From assembly GCF_018320785.1 (NCBI RefSeq), contig NC_054882.1, forward strand, positions 1,256,719 through 1,320,718: a stretch of 64,000 nt of DNA, written 5' to 3'. This DNA is from Cheilinus undulatus (taxonomy: Eukaryota; Chordata; Actinopteri; Labriformes; Labridae). The notes beneath the pieces were generated by a model. It was not told where the DNA came from. It made no database searches and saw nothing but the letters and a program-made list of their open reading frames with translations. Shown here in pieces: positions 1-28,800 of the stretch (positions within the stretch are counted from its first letter, which is position 1; every line of letters starts with the position of its first letter). A program made the position numbers and the translations under genes.

Positions 1-317
1 GGGCCTGGTGAGCGTGAGCTCCCCGGATGTCAGCTCAGTGTCAGAATCCTCCAGCAAAGACACGCCCTCCCAGAGGCCTCTGTGCTCTGCTACCAACGCC
101 CGGCTCTCTGTAAGCTCCCTGCTGGCCGCCGGCGCTCCCATGAGCTCCAGCGCCAGCGTCCCCAACCTGTCATCTAGAGAGGCCAGCCTCATGGAGTCCT
201 TCGTCCGCCGCGCCCCCAACATGTCCCGCACCAACGCCACCAACAACATGAACCTGAGCCGAAGCAGCAGCGACAACAACACCAACACGCTGGGCAGGAA
301 CGTCATGAGCACCGCCA
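1..317 (+). CDS. hectd1: hectd1 exon, Ser-rich linker (5' end off window)
   Basis: Read from base 2, this exon encodes a Ser/Asn-rich, probably disordered segment containing [19 protein letters not shown] and LGRNVMSTA. It ends after the first base of a codon at GCC A|GTGAGT; joining to 2447 makes Thr and continues [12 protein letters not shown]. If the donor is missed, the frame stops five codons later at TAA 332-334. Confidence 0.93.
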
Positions 318-3300
318 GTGAGTACTGCTGTTAAAGTTCTATAATACTGCAATAACACTGCCAGTGAGTACTGCTGTTAAAGTACTATGATACTGCAATA
401 ACACTGCCAGTGAGTACTGCTGTTAAAGTACTATAATACTGCAATAATACTGCAATAACACTGCCAGTGAGTACTGCTGTTAAAGTACTATAATACTGCA
501 ATAATACTGCAATAACACTGCCAGTGAGTACTGCTGTTAAAGTACTATAATACTGCAATAACACTGCCAGTGAGTACTGCTGTTAAAGTACTATAATACT
601 GCAATAATACTGCAATAACACTGCCAGTGAGTACTGCTGTTAAAGTACTATAATACTGCAATAATACTGCAATAACACTGCCAGTGAGTACTGCTGTTAA
701 AGTACTATAATACTGCAATAATATTGCAATAACACTGCCAGTGAGTACTGCTGTTAAAGATCTATAATACTGCAATAACACTGCCAGTGAGTACTGCTGT
801 TAAAGTACTATAATACTGCAATAACACTGCCAGTGAGTACTGCTGTTAAAGTACTATAATACTGCAATAACACTGCCAGTGAGTACTGCTGTTAAAGTAC
901 TATAATACTGCAATAACACTGCCAGTGAGTACTGCTGTTAAAGTTCTATAATACTGCAATAACACTGCCAGTGAGTACTGCTGTTAAAGTACTATGATAC
1001 TGCAATAACACTGCCAGTGAGTACTGCTGTTAAAGTACTATAATACTGCAATAACACTGCCAGTGAGTACTGCTGTTAAAGTACTATAATACTGCAATAA
1101 TACTGCAATAACACTGCCAGTGAGTACTGCTGTTAAAGTACTATAATACTGCAATAACACTGCCAGTGAGTACTGCTGTTAAAGTACTATAATACTGCAA
1201 TAACACTGCCAGTGAGTACTGCTGTTAAAGTACTATGATACTGCAATAACACTGCCAGTGAGTACTGCTGTTAAAGTACTATAATACTGCAATAACACTG
1301 CCAGTGAGTACTGCTGTTAAAGTACTATAATACTGCAATAACACTGCCAGTGAGTACTGCTGTTAAAGTACTATAATACTGCAATAACACTGCCAGTGAG
1401 TACTGCTGTTAAAGTACTATGATACTGCAATAATACTGCAATAACACTGCCAGTGAGTCCTGCTGTTAAAGTACTATGATACTGCAATAATACTGCAATG
1501 ACACTGCCAGTGAGTACTGCTGTTAAAGTACTATAATACTGCAATAATACTGCAATAACACTGCCAGTGAGTACTGCTGTTAAAGTACTATAATACTGCA
1601 ATAATACTGCAATGACACTGCCAGTGAGTACTGCTGTTAAAGTACTATAATACTGCAATAATATTGCAATAACACTGCCAGTGAGTACTGCTGCACTAAT
1701 ACTACAGTGTTTCTGTCAGTGAGAGTACTTCTACTACCTTTATACTGTGATGCTGGGCCCTGCAGTACCATCACATGAAGGCTAGAGTCCTGCTGTTTGA
1801 CCTAAATATTGCGCTCTCTAACCAAATAAACCCACAGTTCTATTTTCCCACTTCTCCTTTTTTACTGCCAGGTATTCCCTCAGTCTTGTGATGTTAATCT
1901 TCCACTAGTAATGACAGGAAGTTGTACTTTATTGCTGTAAATCCTCCTGGTTGGGCTGTAGTTACAGAGGGGTCCTAAGCTCATGTTAAAGTGCCTTCTT
2001 GTCCCGCTCTACTGCTCTGATGTAAACAAGCACAGTGAATAGGCAGCTGTCGTCTCTGTGGATAGGTCCGTTTTGTCCTCTTGTTGAAATTTCCAGGTTG
2101 GGTTGGCATTGGTAGAAACGTTCGTGGTGTTTTTAAGGAGCAGGTTTTTTCAGTCCAGCTGTTCTTAGAGTTCCTGGGTTCCTTAAACATGCACACGCTG
2201 CTGAAAATGTCTGGAAAGTACCGTCAAAGCTCGGTGAGGTTCCTATAGAGACAGATAACAGACATGTAGAGATGGTGCTCCAGTCTGCTGTGTGAACAGC
2301 TTGAGCCTCCTCCAGCCAATCAGCAGCTGTTTCCTGTCAGCTGACTGCAGCTTATAGAGCTTCCATGCTGCTTCGTCTCTTTGGTTTCTGACAAACTAAC
2401 CCCCCTCTGTGTTTGTGTGTTTGTTTGTTTGTTTGTTTGTTTGCAGCTTCTCCTCTCATGGGCGCTCAGAGCTTTCCTAACCTCACCACCACCGGCACCA
2501 GCTCCACCGTTACCATGTCAACCTCCATAGTAACCTGCAGCAATAATGTAGCCACGGCAACCACCGGTCTGTCGGTGGGACAGTTGCTAAGCAACACCCT
2601 GACGACCAGCCTGACGTCCACGTCCAGCGAGAGCGACACGGGCCAGGAGGCCGAGTTCTCGCTCTACGGTTGGTGACCACACACACAAACATGCAGCACG
2701 CTTCTACTAACCTGCTGTTTAACTCCGCCCACATTAGAGAGCGCCACTAAAGCACGGCTTAAAACTCTGATTTATTTAACTCGTATAGAGAACTGTTTAA
2801 ATAGGGACTCAGCTGAGGTTGTGTTCGGAAGACTTTATAATACACCACCTCCTCACAAACATGCAGGAATTAAACTGATTTAAATACAGCTGCAGCCGTG
2901 CTTCATCCCGCCTGCTGTGTCTGTCTTTATGCACCGCTCGCCATCAGACCTGCAGCTCTGGCACAGCAACATGAAGACAGCTGAAGCTGTTTTAATAAAA
3001 TAATAAACTTAATAGAGCTGTTACTATTCTCCTTCCACTACTTTGACTGAACATCCTGTCTCCTCCCGTCTCTCTCTCTCTCTCTGTGTTCTGCAGACTT
3101 CCTGGACAGCTGCCGTGCCAACACGCTACTGGCTGAGCTGGACGATGAGGAGGACCTCCCCGAGCCCGAAGACGACGATGACGAGAATGAAGACGACAAT
3201 CAGGAGGACCAGGAGTACGAGGAGGTCCTGGTAATAACATGTTTTCAATGTTTTTAACTGGTAACAGAAGATAGATGAGCTCTGACTTAGAAGACGGAGG

Positions 3301-9300: not shown

Positions 9301-12300
9301 AGATTCAGTAGAAGGTCTGAGATCATTAACTACAAATACAGAGATTTTAATCTGGAGTTGAACGCCATCTTAAAAGAGGCAAAGAGAGGAGGCTAAGCGG
9401 CTGGTTAGTCATGAACAAAGGCGTCTTAGAAAATATATACACCAGTTTTTATGAGCTGTAACCTTTCACCTTCCTTCAACAACCTCTCTAGAACCTTTAA
9501 AAACGGAGGGAAATGAACTCAATCAGCCGTCTGATGTTTCACTACACTGTTGTTTTCTGTCTGCAGGTTGAACTTCCAGTTCTGTCCGTCCTCGAAAGTC
9601 CACGGTTTCTCAGCTGTGGATCTGAAACCAAACGGAGACGACGAGGTAGAAAATACCCATCAGACAGAGAGGGAGCTCTGATGATAATCAGAGAATAAAT
9701 TCTACTTCCTGTTTTAGAGGACAGAACATTCATTAAACCTGTCTGCTCGTGTCTGTGGTTTCAGATGGTGACCATGGAGAACGCTGAGGAGTACGTGGAG
9801 CTGATGTTTGACTTCTGTATGCACATAGGCATCCAGAAACAGATGGAGGCATTCAGAGGTAAACATAGATATCTGAATAAGTAGAGTGTACGATAGATGT
9901 TTAACACCTACAGTGTTTAGGAAGGACTGAACCTTTCAAAGTAAAATGGCTGGATGAATATAATTGCTCATCAGAGCAGCCAGATGTGTGACGGTGTTGT
10001 AGGACTAAACAACATACCTGATCTCTGCAGTCAGCTGGAGTGGGAGCCAGGATCGTTCACTATCAGTGGAGCCGGGTGGGAGAACTCAAATTTTAACTCT
10101 AAATTTGCAAAAAAGACAGCATCTTTTAATTACTACTAACTGTAATCCCAGTCTGGATTCTCAGTTTTAGATTAGAAAGTAGTCACTAACTGTAATCCCA
10201 GTCTGGATTTACAGTTTTTAGAAGCAGTCTCATGCAGATTCAGAGTCTGGGTTCATAAAGGAGACAATGCTCTGTTGATGCTCTTTATTTTATAAATGTC
10301 TACTTTTTGGCTCTGTTTAGAACTTTAAACGGCTGTTTCTATGAAGAAGTTTCCTTCTATCATCCTTAGCCATATTATTATCTCATCTCCTTCTCTCCTT
10401 TTTTTGTCTCCTCATCCTTCCTCCTCTTTGTCTGTTTTCTCTTCTATCTTATTTCCACCACTCTCTCCTTTCCTGTCTTCCTCCTCTCTCTTCTCTATCC
10501 CCTCCTTTTCCTCCTCTGTCTCCTCTTCCTTCTCCTCTTCCTCCTCTGTCATCTCGTCTTCCTCCTGTCTCCTCTGTCTCCTCCTCTTCCTCCTCTGTCT
10601 CCTCCTCTTCCTCCTGTGTCTCCTCCTCTTCCTCCTGTCCCCTGCTCTTCCTCAGAGGGATTTAACCGAGTGTTCCCGATGGAGAAGTTGAGCTCTTTCA
10701 GCCATAAGGAGGTCCAGATGATCCTCTGTGGTAACCAGTCACCTTCCTGGACTGCTGATGACATCATCAACTACACAGAGCCAAAGCTGGGTTACACCAG
10801 AGACAGGTGAGCATCTCAGAGAGACAGGTGTGTGCTGTGATGACATAATTTCCTGCTTTGACCTGCTCATTCTTTGCCCCGCCCCCTTCAGTCCCGGCTT
10901 CCTGCGGTTTGTCAGAGTTCTCTGCGGGATGTCGTCTGACGAGAGGAAAGCCTTCCTGCAGTTCACCACCGGCTGCTCCACGCTGCCCCCTGGTGGCCTC
11001 GCTAACCTGCACCCCCGCCTCACCATCGTCCGGAAGGTACGCTCGTCTCTGATTGGGCGAACTGATTCAACAAATTTCAAACCTTTAAGGTTTGATATGA
11101 GCTAAAAACAGAAAATACCAGAGTCATAATAATCTGGTTTATATACATGTTTATAATGGCCAAGTAAGGGAGAAAAGCGGGTAAAAAGTGGCACTGTTAT
11201 TCACCATGCATCCACAGTGAATAGAGGGAAGTGTCAGAGACGTGCGTCTGTCGTGCATGCGTTGTATTTTTTGCAGTCCCAACGCCATTTATCTCAGTCG
11301 GTCTCTTGGGTTTATAGAACAGGCATTAGAGTTGATCCTATACTCTGGGTTTTATGGTAATCCGGTCTCATTGGTTTATAAAACAAGAATTAGAGTTGCT
11401 CATATACCCTGGGTTTTATGGTAATCTGGTCTCACTGGTTTATAAAATCCAAATTAGAGTTGCTCATATACTCTGGGTTTTTGGGTAATCTGGTCTCACT
11501 AGTTTATAAAACAAGAATTAGAGTTGCTCCTGGACTCTGGGTTTTATGGTAACCTGGTCTCACTGGTTTATAAAACAAGAATTAGAGATGCTCCTATACT
11601 CTGGGTTTTTGGGTAATCTGGTCTCACTGGTGTATAAAATCGGAATTAGAGTTGCTCCTATACTGTGGGTTTTATAGTAATCTGGTCTCACTGGTTTATA
11701 AAATCCAAATCGGAGTTGCTCATATACTCTGGGTTTTTGGGTTATCTGGTCTCACTAGTTTATAAAACAAGAATTATAGTTGCTCCTGGACTCTGGGTTT
11801 TACAGTAATCTGGTCTCACTGGTATATAAAATGGGAATTAGAGTTGCTCCTATACTCTGAGTTTTATGGTAATCTGGTCTCACTGGTTTATAAAATCCGA
11901 ATTAGAGATGCTCCTATACTTTGGGTTTTATGGTAACCTGTTCTCACTGGTTTATAAAATCCGAATCAGAGATGCTCCTATACTTTGGGTTTTATGGTAA
12001 TCTGGTCTCACTGGTATATAAAATGGGAATTAGAGTTGCTCCTATACTCTGGGTTTTATGGTAATCTGGTCTCACTGGTATGTAAAATGGGAATTAGAGT
12101 TGCTCCTATACTTTGGGTTTTATGGTAATCTGGTCTCACTGGTTTATAAAATACAAATTAGAGTTGCTCCTATACTCTGGGTTTTACAGTAATCTGGAGT
12201 AAAGATCTAGTTAGGTAGATTTATGTTCAAATGTTTTTAAAATTCTGTGTTTTCCTATGATGTGATCATTTTCTGATGCCTGGATCTGATTGGCTGCCCT

Positions 12301-17159: not shown

Positions 17160-18333
17160 TTGGCCAGCCGTTGCATATTTGTACATTTAACCAAAACAGC
17201 TTTTTTGTTACAGAATGAAAATGTTGCCAGCATGGTTGAGGATCCCTGCCCCTCTGATATGTGGAGTCAGTAAATTGCCCGTTGCTGAGTGTCTACGGCT
17301 TCTCTGTGAAATCAAACAGGTAAAGGTTCAGACTGATGTCTGATAGAATCCCGATTAAGTCCATGATTCTGGTGTTTGACCAATCAGGATTCAGCGTTCA
17401 GATTAAAGGATACGTCCAGCTCGCTCTGCAGACAAAGACAGAAACCATCAGAAAGATGTTTGACAGGAAGTGAGGCTGTTTTAAAGTGATGAAGAAAAAA
17501 CTGGAACTCACCACCCGGCTGAAGTATTTATCTAAAACCTCCACAAAGTTATGAACCAGCTCGTAGACAGACAGCTCGTTCTGTGGACAAGACAAACACA
17601 CGCTCAAACATCTAGACGCCCGTGATTATAGGAAGAACAGGCAGAATATTTTCACGTGCTGAGTTTGACGTGAGCCGTTGCTTCTCACCTCGTTGTCCGT
17701 GACTCCGACCACGATGTAGAGAGCGGCGTACTGACGGTAAACCAGCTTAAAGTCTTTATACTCCACAAACGAACACTGAAACAGACAGTCAGGATTCATC
17801 TCCTCATGTTACTGAAGACTCAGACAGACAGGTGGACAGGTAGACAGGTGAGCAGACAGGTGAGCAGGTATACAAGTGAACAGAGAGGTGAGTAGACAGG
17901 TGAGCAGACAGACAAGTGAGCAGACAGACAGGTGAGAAGACAGGTGAACAGGTACACAGGTGAACAGACAGGTGAGCAGACAGACAGGTGAGAAGACAGG
18001 TGAGCAGGTATACAGGTGAACAAGCAGGTGAGCAGACAGACAGGTGAGCAGGTATACAGGTGAACAGACAGGTGAGCAGACAGACAGGTGAGCAGGTATA
18101 CAGGTGAACAGACAGGTGAGCAGACAGACAGGTGAGCAGGTACACAGGTGAACAGACAGGTGAGCAGACAGACAGGTGAGTAGACAGGTATTCACCTGGT
18201 CCTTCTTGCGGCTCAGGCAGCAGCGAACCACGTCAGCCTCCAGCGGCGCCCTCCTGCTCAGCTCCACAGGCTGGTAGTAGCGGGACAGTCTGGTCTGACC
18301 CTGACGGTTCACCATGAGGATGAACTTTATCAT
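15015..18333 (-). CDS. ap4s1: ap4s1, AP-4 complex subunit sigma-1 (complete)
   Basis: Exons in coding order: 18333-18196, 17775-17689, 17580-17512, 17425-17414, 15143-15015. They join in phase 0 to 144 residues, the usual length of the family. Sequence runs [84 protein letters not shown] and ends LDKMADG. This is the longin-type fold of adaptor sigma subunits. Known role: AP-4 (epsilon, beta4, mu4, sigma4) sorts cargo such as ATG9 from the trans-Golgi without clathrin. The gene is divergent from strn3 and convergent with hectd1. A short uORF overlaps the start. Introns hold a hAT element, microsatellites and the motif zone. Identification rests on length, sequence and synteny. Confidence 0.95.
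15718..16886. mobile_element. non-autonomous hAT element in ap4s1 intron
   Basis: Termini TAGGGCTGAGCAAT and ATTGCCCAGCCCTA are inverted repeats, flanked by a perfect 8-bp duplication GTTTTCAG (15710-15717 and 16887-16894). The middle (about 15985-16680) is an A/T homopolymer followed by degenerate TTTTGCCACTTTTCACC units. Same family as 44429-44919. Confidence 0.9.
17125..17158. repeat. (TC)n microsatellite
   Basis: About 17 TC dinucleotides in an ap4s1 intron. Confidence 0.95.
17414..17425 (-). CDS. ap4s1: ap4s1 12-nt microexon (SELD)
   Basis: AGCGAGCTGGAC encodes SELD, required between FSRV and IMFNLD in the family. Its acceptor is strong (pyrimidine-rich, then CTGCAG); its donor GTATCC is weak. 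With it the protein is 144 residues; without it four conserved residues are lost in frame. Reading on into the intron would give VSFNLNAES and a stop. Confidence 0.85.
17820..18190. repeat. CAGGTGAG minisatellite beside first ap4s1 coding exon
   Basis: A mosaic of 12-16-bp units (CAGGTGAGCAGACAGA, CAGGTGAGCAGGTATA, CAGGTGAACAGA) fills the intron up to the donor of the first coding exon. The donor-like CAGGTGAG is on the plus strand, antisense to ap4s1, so here it does not act as a sense splice signal. Confidence 0.92.
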
Positions 18334-25800: not shown

Positions 25801-28800
25801 ACGCACACTTGCTAGCCTTCTCCAAATGTGTTTTTAACAGTTACTGCAGAGGACTCTGGTCTCAACACTGTAGAACCTGAATCAGGAAGATCCTTCAGAG
25901 GAAGGGCCCTGAATTGTAGAGACGGTTTGCGTGTAGATCAGAGATGAGAGATGCCAAGGTTTAGGCTATGCCTGCTAGTTTTGGTAATCAAAACAAACAA
26001 AAACCCTCTGTTGAGCATCTAGGATTAGGCTGTTGAATTTGACCGTCCTGGGACGGGTCGGTATTTAAAGGTAATGATGCAGCACCAATACGGGAAAATA
26101 CCCAACCCTAAGAAAGACACATTGGTCTGAGCAGCTTTTCTGTTGAACCCTCCTGTTCCACGTTACTCTAGCCACTCCAACGAGAACAACAACAGCGGAC
26201 CTTCGTTAATGTTTAGCTCAGATGGGACAGGTGAGGAGACCAGGTGAGGAGACCAGGTGAGGAGACCAGGTGAGGAGACCAGGTGAGGAGACCAGGCGAG
26301 GAGACCAGGTGAGGAGACCAGGTGAGGGTCAGACATCAGCATGCTAAGGATCGGTTGGTTAATTTCCCATTTTGTAGGTCAGTAGAGACTCAGAATATCC
26401 AAACATAAGTTAAAAATGCTAAAAGAGTTTTTTATTATATATCTTTAAAATCGTCAGCTTCTCGCTGGCGTGTGAATGACGTGTGTGAAACATAACTGAC
26501 AGAGCTCTGGTCATCTCTCCGTGTTAATGCTGCGTCTTTAGCGTGTGTTTTTCCCGTAGAGAGCGATCTATGATGGATGTGATTGCTGAAATGTTGGATG
26601 GTTCATGTCTTTGTCATCACACACCCCTGGCATGGGTTCTCTGTGTGCACACTCTCTCTCTGTGTATAATGACAGGCTCTCAGCTCACGGTGAGTTCGCT
26701 CTGCTCTGACTTGTTGTGGTGTGACACTGGATGCCTTCAGCATGACTCTGACAGAACTCCTGATAAGAGCCGAACACACAAACTGCTGCTGGAAAACAAA
26801 CGCGCCGCCGCGGTGTCGACATTCCTGCCGGTTAGGTTTACTGCAGGAGGGGCAGAGGATTCTGGGGGAATGTTGACGGTTTGATTGTTGGGAGTTTTAA
26901 AGGTTGGGTTTATCATTAATGTTTAATTTTAAAGCATGATGTGTCTTATAATGCCTGGCTTAAAGCTGTCCTTGTGACCTAATTCCATTAAGGGTTGCTC
27001 CGATGCTGACCTCATTAAGGCTGGCTAAACTGGATGATGTTTGATATTCATGGATCCTGATTGGGCGCTGTCTGACCTGTATACCTGCAGTAGCCAATGA
27101 GAGCAAGCAAACCAAAGAGCATCACTGACCACATGTTGCATATCGTTAGCCTTATAGCATAATTGTCTCAGTCATATTTCAAAGTTTTAAGAAAACACAC
27201 AGATTTTGGCAAACACAGTATTTTTTATTTATACTGTAACAGTTCTACTAAAAAATGCCACAACAAAGACTACATAACAAATAAAAGTGACTTAATAGAT
27301 AATGATTGATACAGTGATTATGGACTGTAACAGGCGCTCTGATTGGCTGAGGATATCGGCAGTAAGGCAGAATGAATCAGCAGTGTTAGGAGAGTAGAGT
27401 TGGGCAGATATCACAATTTGGCCAAAAATGACTTGTGCTATTATGCTACAAGGCTAACAGTATGCTAATCTGACCCTGTATTTGCCATGCAGCTGACAAG
27501 GAAAGCTGCTTTGTTTTGTTTTTGTCTTTGTAGGGTCAAATTTTTCATTAAACCACAACATGAAACATGAGCTCTGCAGTATGGGCATCTAAGTTTTTAG
27601 CAGCAAGCGTGAATACATCCAAACATCTTTGCATTCGTCAGTGCTTTGTTGACTCCTTACACCAAAATGTAAAGACCTTCCTGCAAACTGAAACCTGCAT
27701 TGAAGCACATGCTTGTAGTAAACACAGAACAAAACTGAGCTGTATAGATCAGTCTCATGGATCAGCCCATCATCACTGATATCCAGGCTGGCTTTGAGTC
27801 CAGATCAGACTCATATGTGGTGTCAGGATTAGATCAGGGCTAGGATATGGCAGTATTCCTTTTTAATACCAGTAAACCTTTCTAAAATACCCCACACTAA
27901 ACAGCAGGGATTCTCAGACACACTCTGCTCAAGGCACCCCATCTTCATACTGCAAACGAAGAGGGCTTAATATAAGAAAAACACTAAATCTGAGAAGACA
28001 GAGACTTCTCTGTCCATGCAGCAAGATCATTTGGCTTAATAAGATATCTTGAAATAAAATTGTTAAATCTAGAAACAAGTGAGTCGGCAGAACCCTTCAA
28101 AAGAGTTAACCCTTTACCTACTAAAGATGGTGATTTGGACATATTTAGTTATTCTGGCTGTAAAATAGTCAGGAAATGCCCTAAGTCTGAGAGCTTTGCT
28201 CCCTTTTCCCAGGAGTACTTGAACTTGACTTTTCAACATCTGGTTAATGATTATTGCACATTATATGGAATTGTCAGCAGTTTAAAAGAAGAAAAACACA
28301 AAAACAGATTTGTTTTTCATGGCTTTTATGAGAAGAAATGTTGTTATTGCTCATGAAGTTTTGATTTGACATTTGAAATGTGAACCTATACATGTTTAGA
28401 ACAATCAGCAGTCATTTTTGGAGTCTAGGACTCTGGGTGTGCAAAACACAGTGCAAAAGAGAACTATATACATAGGAGACAATTAGTGGAAATAAAGGTG
28501 GAAAAATGCATTCTCAGCATCCTCAGTAACATGTTGTTATTGCACATGACATACACGGACAAATGCCACTATCTAACACTATTTTTAGAAAACTAAACTC
28601 CACTCTCACTCGCTCTCCTTTTACTCTCTTCCTTCACTCTCCTTTCTCACTCGTCTTCTGCCAAAGCTGCCGTTTTCGCGGTGCTGTTCAACATTACTGT
28701 AATATATATACCACTCATCATATATTGCTGGAAAGCACGGATTCTCAGCTCTCTGTCAGCGTTAGAATTTTTTAGATTGAGCAAACTTTCGAGGAGTTAC

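Follow-up and report, generated by a model that had tools for sequence, protein, structure and literature searches.

The analysed window is a 64,000-nucleotide stretch of Cheilinus undulatus DNA (C18:1256719-1320718), and genome-wide counts were made across 1.17 Gb in 46 contigs. The first 317 nucleotides (1-317, plus strand) form the 3′ part of a presumed hectd1 coding exon, recognised by its open frame and acceptor. The complete exon is 999 nt long and starts upstream of the window, at C18:1256037. The next hectd1 exon was assigned from frame and phase to 2447-2668 on the plus strand, where it is entered at TTTGCAG/CTTCTCC. Between the two lies an intron of 2,129 nt (318-2446, plus strand); the intron preceding the 999-nt exon measures 4,250 nt from coordinates. 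The exon end at 317 is in phase 1 and the exon at 2447 fits that phase, which points to the frame-consistent CCA/GTGAGT at 318-323 (plus strand) as the presumed authentic 5′ splice site.

The gene looks like the hectd1 ubiquitin ligase gene, with the HECT domain found by Pfam. HECT matches fell in two downstream exons (E = 1.7e-05 and 4.9e-06). A Mib_herc2 match stood at the beginning of the 999-nt exon, with E = 4e-7 but 30.3 bits, below the cut-off of 33.5. Adjoining hectd1 on the opposite strand is a clathrin adaptor small-chain gene (Pfam E = 3.9e-08 and 1.9e-06). This pair is presumably HECTD1 beside AP4S1, on the basis of human sequence and gene order, and on the same basis the spliced protein reading NVMSTA/TSPLMG is presumably HECTD1. 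The spliced hectd1 peptide across the array-bearing intron gave no match in the PDB.

The intron opens with a junction-spanning minisatellite of 46- and 57-bp units holding 28 donor cores (310-1693, plus strand), delimited from TRF rows and the core count. The motif CCAGTGAGT was present in 28 copies in the window, all within 315-1678 and spaced 46 or 57 bp apart; this unit count is that of one genome assembly. The units run head to tail and their lengths fall within the range of roughly 10-100 bp that defines a minisatellite. A sequence-only reading had described a tandem 46/57-bp array of about 28 units, with one proper donor and about 27 decoys, and the TRF rows and motif count bore this out: the donor at 318 alone is frame-consistent and is followed by 27 matching decoys (364-1686, plus strand; +1 positions at 364, 410, 467 and so on to 1681). 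Positions −3 to +6, with the core CCA/GTGAGT, were identical in 28 of 28 donors. The longer motif GTGAGTAC was found in 27 of the 28 copies and was replaced by GTGAGTCC in the copy at 1453.

Read in the frame of the exon, the intron encodes SEYCC and then stops at a TAA (332-334, plus strand). Because this codon precedes the first decoy at 364, use of any decoy would include a premature stop, as the same reading had claimed. All 27 decoys are thus donor-like intronic sites behind an in-frame stop, one mark of a latent 5′ splice site; the other is that such a site stays silent in normal cells and is used under stress. The array, the frame and the stop were observed directly. The claim that the sites are equal held in part. 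Predicted pairing to U1 was alike for the authentic site and the one decoy tested (−7.1 kcal/mol each), with −5.7 kcal/mol for the 1453 copy carrying GTGAGTCC and −14.6 kcal/mol for a consensus donor; the sites are placed differently with respect to the exon, however, and their predicted folding also differs.

The origin of the array was approached through its flanks. The first copy stands at the end of a coding exon and exon-derived bases precede each donor, as in a repeat that spans a junction. The last 8 exon bases differ from the unit by one mismatch (CACCGCCA in the exon, CACTGCCA in the unit), so that the likeness noted earlier was correct. The left flank of the unit was matched as well as by the exon end at 76 of 40,000 random window positions and at none of 234 donor-like positions. 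These counts uphold the further claim that the junction seeded the expansion, in the sense that it lies inside the duplicated segment. With up to 3 mismatches allowed, the 41-bp unit core gave 27 matches in the 1.17-Gb genome, all 27 inside the hectd1 array. On this search for copies with at most 3 mismatches, a dispersed repeat or transposable element was rejected as the source. Both the junction homology and the restriction of the core to hectd1 are direct observations, and because of them the array is read as local, with the seed most likely placed across the junction.

A diverged further copy was recognised at the 3′ edge of the array (1697-1732, plus strand) with a local alignment score of 21, which none of 200 shuffles reached. 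The remaining intron (1801-2446) scored 18 against the unit, a value equalled by 47 of 200 shuffles. Across 27 units, 10 of 1,242 cells departed from the commonest base, counted after one 11-bp block had been removed from each 57-bp unit, with variants inside that block uncounted. Since so few cells differ, the array is either young or homogenised, and in an array so nearly uniform the intact decoy cores carry no information on selection. Selection on the decoy cores, which uniform cores would also fit, is neither shown nor excluded. When four further hectd1 donors were searched over 2.5 kb each, no junction copies with at least 14 of 16 matches were found, against 27 at the array donor. A new intron between two copies, as in intron gain by tandem genomic duplication, was not seen: the array lies within one intron whose flanking exons are phase-matched. 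Downstream of the array, TTTTTTACTGCCAG/GTATTC (window 1861-1876) resembles a recursive splice site, probably by chance.

Two of 19 other donor-containing arrays that were fetched also start at the end of a coding exon. The first (L038) follows an exon of selenos on C1, near 58.60 Mb, identified on two joined exons by Pfam Selenoprotein_S (E = 7.3e-28). It contains 36 copies of CAG/GTGAGT including the authentic one, mostly in 19- and 21-bp units, and 11 of the last 12 exon bases are repeated before the donor. Its first four decoys lie in the reading frame with no stop before them, so that each unit included would extend the protein by 7 residues (VSLRAAQ). The next selenos exon is followed by a second, smaller array, with GTACGT at the exon and then GTCTGT copies, in which 14 of the last 16 exon bases are repeated. 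Junction arrays therefore occur at two successive selenos introns (L038 and L048; C1, about 58.6 Mb). The other array (L040) follows an exon of trip12 on C2, near 6.957 Mb, in which 51 of 51 residues were aligned to human TRIP12 (E = 4.4e-21). Its units are 35 bp long, with 3 GTGAGT including the authentic one and then GTGGGT; copy 2 repeats 26 of the last 27 exon bases and copy 3 repeats all 27. The next exons were located downstream of the arrays in both genes; that of trip12 reads NAVCKEIIPTSEF. In the following trip12 intron (L049; C2, about 6.955 Mb) a minisatellite begins a short way past the donor; its units, about 30 bp long, do not include that donor. The like architecture at selenos and trip12 was, again, directly observed. 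The hectd1 array is real, was born locally and is one of a recurring kind in the Cheilinus undulatus genome.

The other 17 of the 19 fetched arrays showed no coding junction in an open-frame test of their flanks, a test that misses untranslated exons and was applied to an array whose start lies outside the fetched DNA (L045), to one that is hardly tandem (L037) and to two in which the first donor picked may not be the array start (L036 and L047). The 19 leave out one of two neighbouring clusters on C14 and arrays on C5, C13 and C20. At C13:49610735-49613802, CCAGTGAGT recurs at intervals of 45 bp in a long array. Genome-wide, a search for three AGGTRAGT motifs separated by gaps of 12-42 found 3,338 matches, overlaps included, where the reversed control had 1,989. 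The corresponding counts were 286 against 38 for GAGGTGAGT and 143 against 6 for CCAGTGAGT with gaps of 20-50, while AAGGTAAGT gave fewer matches than its control (52 against 106). These counts are of matches rather than loci and are dominated by a few large arrays, with places listed in full for AAGGTAAGT only. In a 200-kb genome sample of 20 stretches, none of 14 arrays carried the donor motif, and donor arrays are therefore uncommon overall. When the sample and the window were combined, 4 of 31 arrays carried it, all in the window, where two belong to the hectd1 array; the reversed-motif control gave 2.

Further repeats were recorded in the window. An intron of the ap4s1-like gene (window 17821-18189, minus strand), with exon pieces on either side at 18196-18333 and 17692-17775 (minus strand), consists almost wholly of a CAGACAGGTGAG-type minisatellite whose donor-like motifs are antisense. 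It was rejected as a junction array, its best match to its own junction being 11 of 16. At 26228-26327 there is a 13-bp array of CAGGTGAGGAGAC in 7.7 copies, each donor-like. At 10471-10653 a pyrimidine-rich tandem repeat, about 180 bp in length, seems to form the end of a hectd1 intron, immediately ahead of the acceptor.

The favoured account, which we regard as probable, is a tandem duplication across the junction, followed by expansion within the intron, with the first donor used and the decoys latent. A duplication spanning the hectd1 junction would have placed within the intron a copy of at least the final 8 bases of the exon together with the first part of the intron itself. This copy would then have grown to 28 donors, by slippage or by unequal exchange. 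It is most likely still the first donor, bordering the exon, that the spliceosome selects; exon enhancers and weaker masking by RNA structure perhaps assist it. With long introns on either side (4,250 and 2,129 nt), splice sites would be paired across the exon, which should favour the first donor. The decoys would act as latent 5′ splice sites, and any mRNA spliced to them should undergo nonsense-mediated decay. As the intron takes the copies with it when it is removed, the array would be close to neutral and free to grow.

Published work on competing donors bears on this choice. In one study, five minigenes carrying two identical strong 5′ sites, with introns of 365 nt, were spliced only from the upstream site, and the upstream donor was preferred where flanking introns were long (PMC9225289). 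The lengths of the introns flanking the 999-nt hectd1 exon are the reason for which this exon-side rule should apply here. Several points count against so simple a reading. Pairing across a short intron favours the downstream of two donors (PMC9225289), and at hectd1 intron-side pairing would favour the most downstream donor. For exons above 250 nt the upstream preference was only 44% (Table 1 of PMC9225289), and weak donors led to skipping of the larger exons (PMC9225289); the hectd1 exon is 999 nt long. The cited minigenes held two sites and the array holds 28. The exon-side match at hectd1 is also short, at 8 bases with one mismatch. As to the decoys, in humans over 98% of latent 5′ sites sit behind an in-frame stop (PMC3510495).

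Minisatellites are commonly variable. If some transcripts used decoys, the share of hectd1 mRNA that decay removes could be set by the number of units and could vary between alleles. Such a dependence on copy number, which the sequence-only reading had suggested, would draw on this general variability, on 27 matching competitors that all carry the in-frame stop, and on decoy cores that are unmutated in 27 of 27 cases. However, uniform cores are what a young or homogenised array would be expected to show (10 of 1,242 cells differing), and a conserved gene should pay a high price for such leakage. This explanation is considered unlikely.

Predicted RNA folding raises a further possibility, that the units fold over their own donors and leave the first copy open, which is then chosen. 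The predicted cost of opening the first donor in three folding windows was 3.6, 4.1 and 3.2 kcal/mol, below the decoy medians of 5.2, 5.6 and 5.9 kcal/mol; the medians for 25 other GTRAG sites were 2.6, 3.1 and 3.5 kcal/mol. The first copy differs from the unit consensus by two bases, the exon base at −5 and GTTCT in place of GTACT. With both changed, the first site became less accessible in the model in each of the windows (0.00283 to 0.00005, 0.00129 to 0.00001 and 0.00555 to 0.00111), and the array segment 361-820 was predicted to be more stable than 59 of 60 shuffles. Against this, the first site ranked only 11 of 28 in the smallest folding window and 9 of 28 by mean unpaired probability, and in the largest window changing both bases did not move it from rank 1. 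When the exon alone was shuffled, it took rank 1 in 8 of 20 runs. A single 46-nt unit was rejected as an exceptional hairpin, since 79 of 500 dinucleotide shuffles were equally stable, and the unit at 922 also has GTTCT. Of four other hectd1 donors, one was costlier to open than the first donor in all three windows. Nor were the ranks of the first donor consistent elsewhere (10, 9 and 5 of 36 at selenos; 3, 1 and 1 of 3 at trip12). The model thus suggests that folding covers the decoys more than the first site, though not robustly, and the idea of an authentic site that is uniquely open was set aside across windows, controls, selenos and trip12. Self-masking as the basis of donor choice is accordingly rated quite improbable.

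U1 is known to act in exon recognition and in the protection of transcripts from premature cleavage. The array places 28 U1-compatible sites within 1.4 kb, and these might aid recognition of the exon or guard a long transcript against premature polyadenylation. Their pairing is modest, however, at −7.1 kcal/mol against −14.6 kcal/mol for the consensus, and folding is predicted to cover the decoys, so a role of this kind appears very doubtful. Least credible is an ordinary minisatellite that abuts the exon and matches its end by chance, or a copy number created by assembly: the match spans 8 bases with one mismatch and 76 of 40,000 random positions do as well, but the exon copies at selenos and trip12 are longer, and the array, with distinct unit variants and two unit lengths, is unlike a simple collapsed or duplicated stretch.

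Returning to junction duplication with latent decoys, several related systems are known. Zhuo et al. in 2007 are said to have derived introns from tandem arrays, through tandem duplication of a segment carrying splice signals. Internal tandem repeats at exon-intron boundaries were reported in human genes within segmental duplications, with units of about 30 bp on average (PMC2812944). They share with the hectd1 array a minisatellite at an exon-intron boundary that is able to change exon content. They were found through differences in repeat number between recent paralogues and were tied to novel introns (PMC2812944), whereas at hectd1 a single gene's existing 5′ splice site has been multiplied many times inside the intron that it opens. 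Intron gain by tandem genomic duplication likewise involves a duplicated segment that holds a splice signal; there, a duplicated exonic AGGT supplies the donor and acceptor of a new intron (PMC3443670), while at hectd1 an existing intron gains donors and no intron is created.

The decoys share with the latent 5′ splice sites of PMC3510495 a consensus-like intronic donor behind an in-frame stop. Unlike those, the hectd1 decoys are the authentic site itself repeated in tandem; neither "tandem" nor "repeat" appears in the text of that source (PMC3510495). Competition between identical donors, with the upstream one favoured by long flanking introns, is common to hectd1 and the minigenes; the latter had two engineered sites (PMC9225289), and hectd1 has 28 natural ones and a 999-nt exon. 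A literature search that covered few subscription journals recognised no description of tandem 5′ splice-site arrays of the hectd1 kind.

Earlier tests of how one of several equal 5′ splice sites is chosen used two engineered sites (PMC9225289), and hectd1 offers 28 natural ones. Because the arrays at selenos and trip12 are of the same kind, they too provide natural tests of this choice, in rows with other unit lengths and reading frames than at hectd1. The arrays further suggest one route by which introns grow, through copies of their own first bases. A wider proposal is put forward tentatively, as a possibility rather than an expectation: 5′ splice sites may be recurrent birth sites of minisatellites in this genome, tolerated as the first donor wins, and some rows may become heritable dials of splicing or of protein length. 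If so, duplications of a junction would grow into rows of competing donors, as in the 28 at hectd1, the 36 at selenos and the 3 at trip12.
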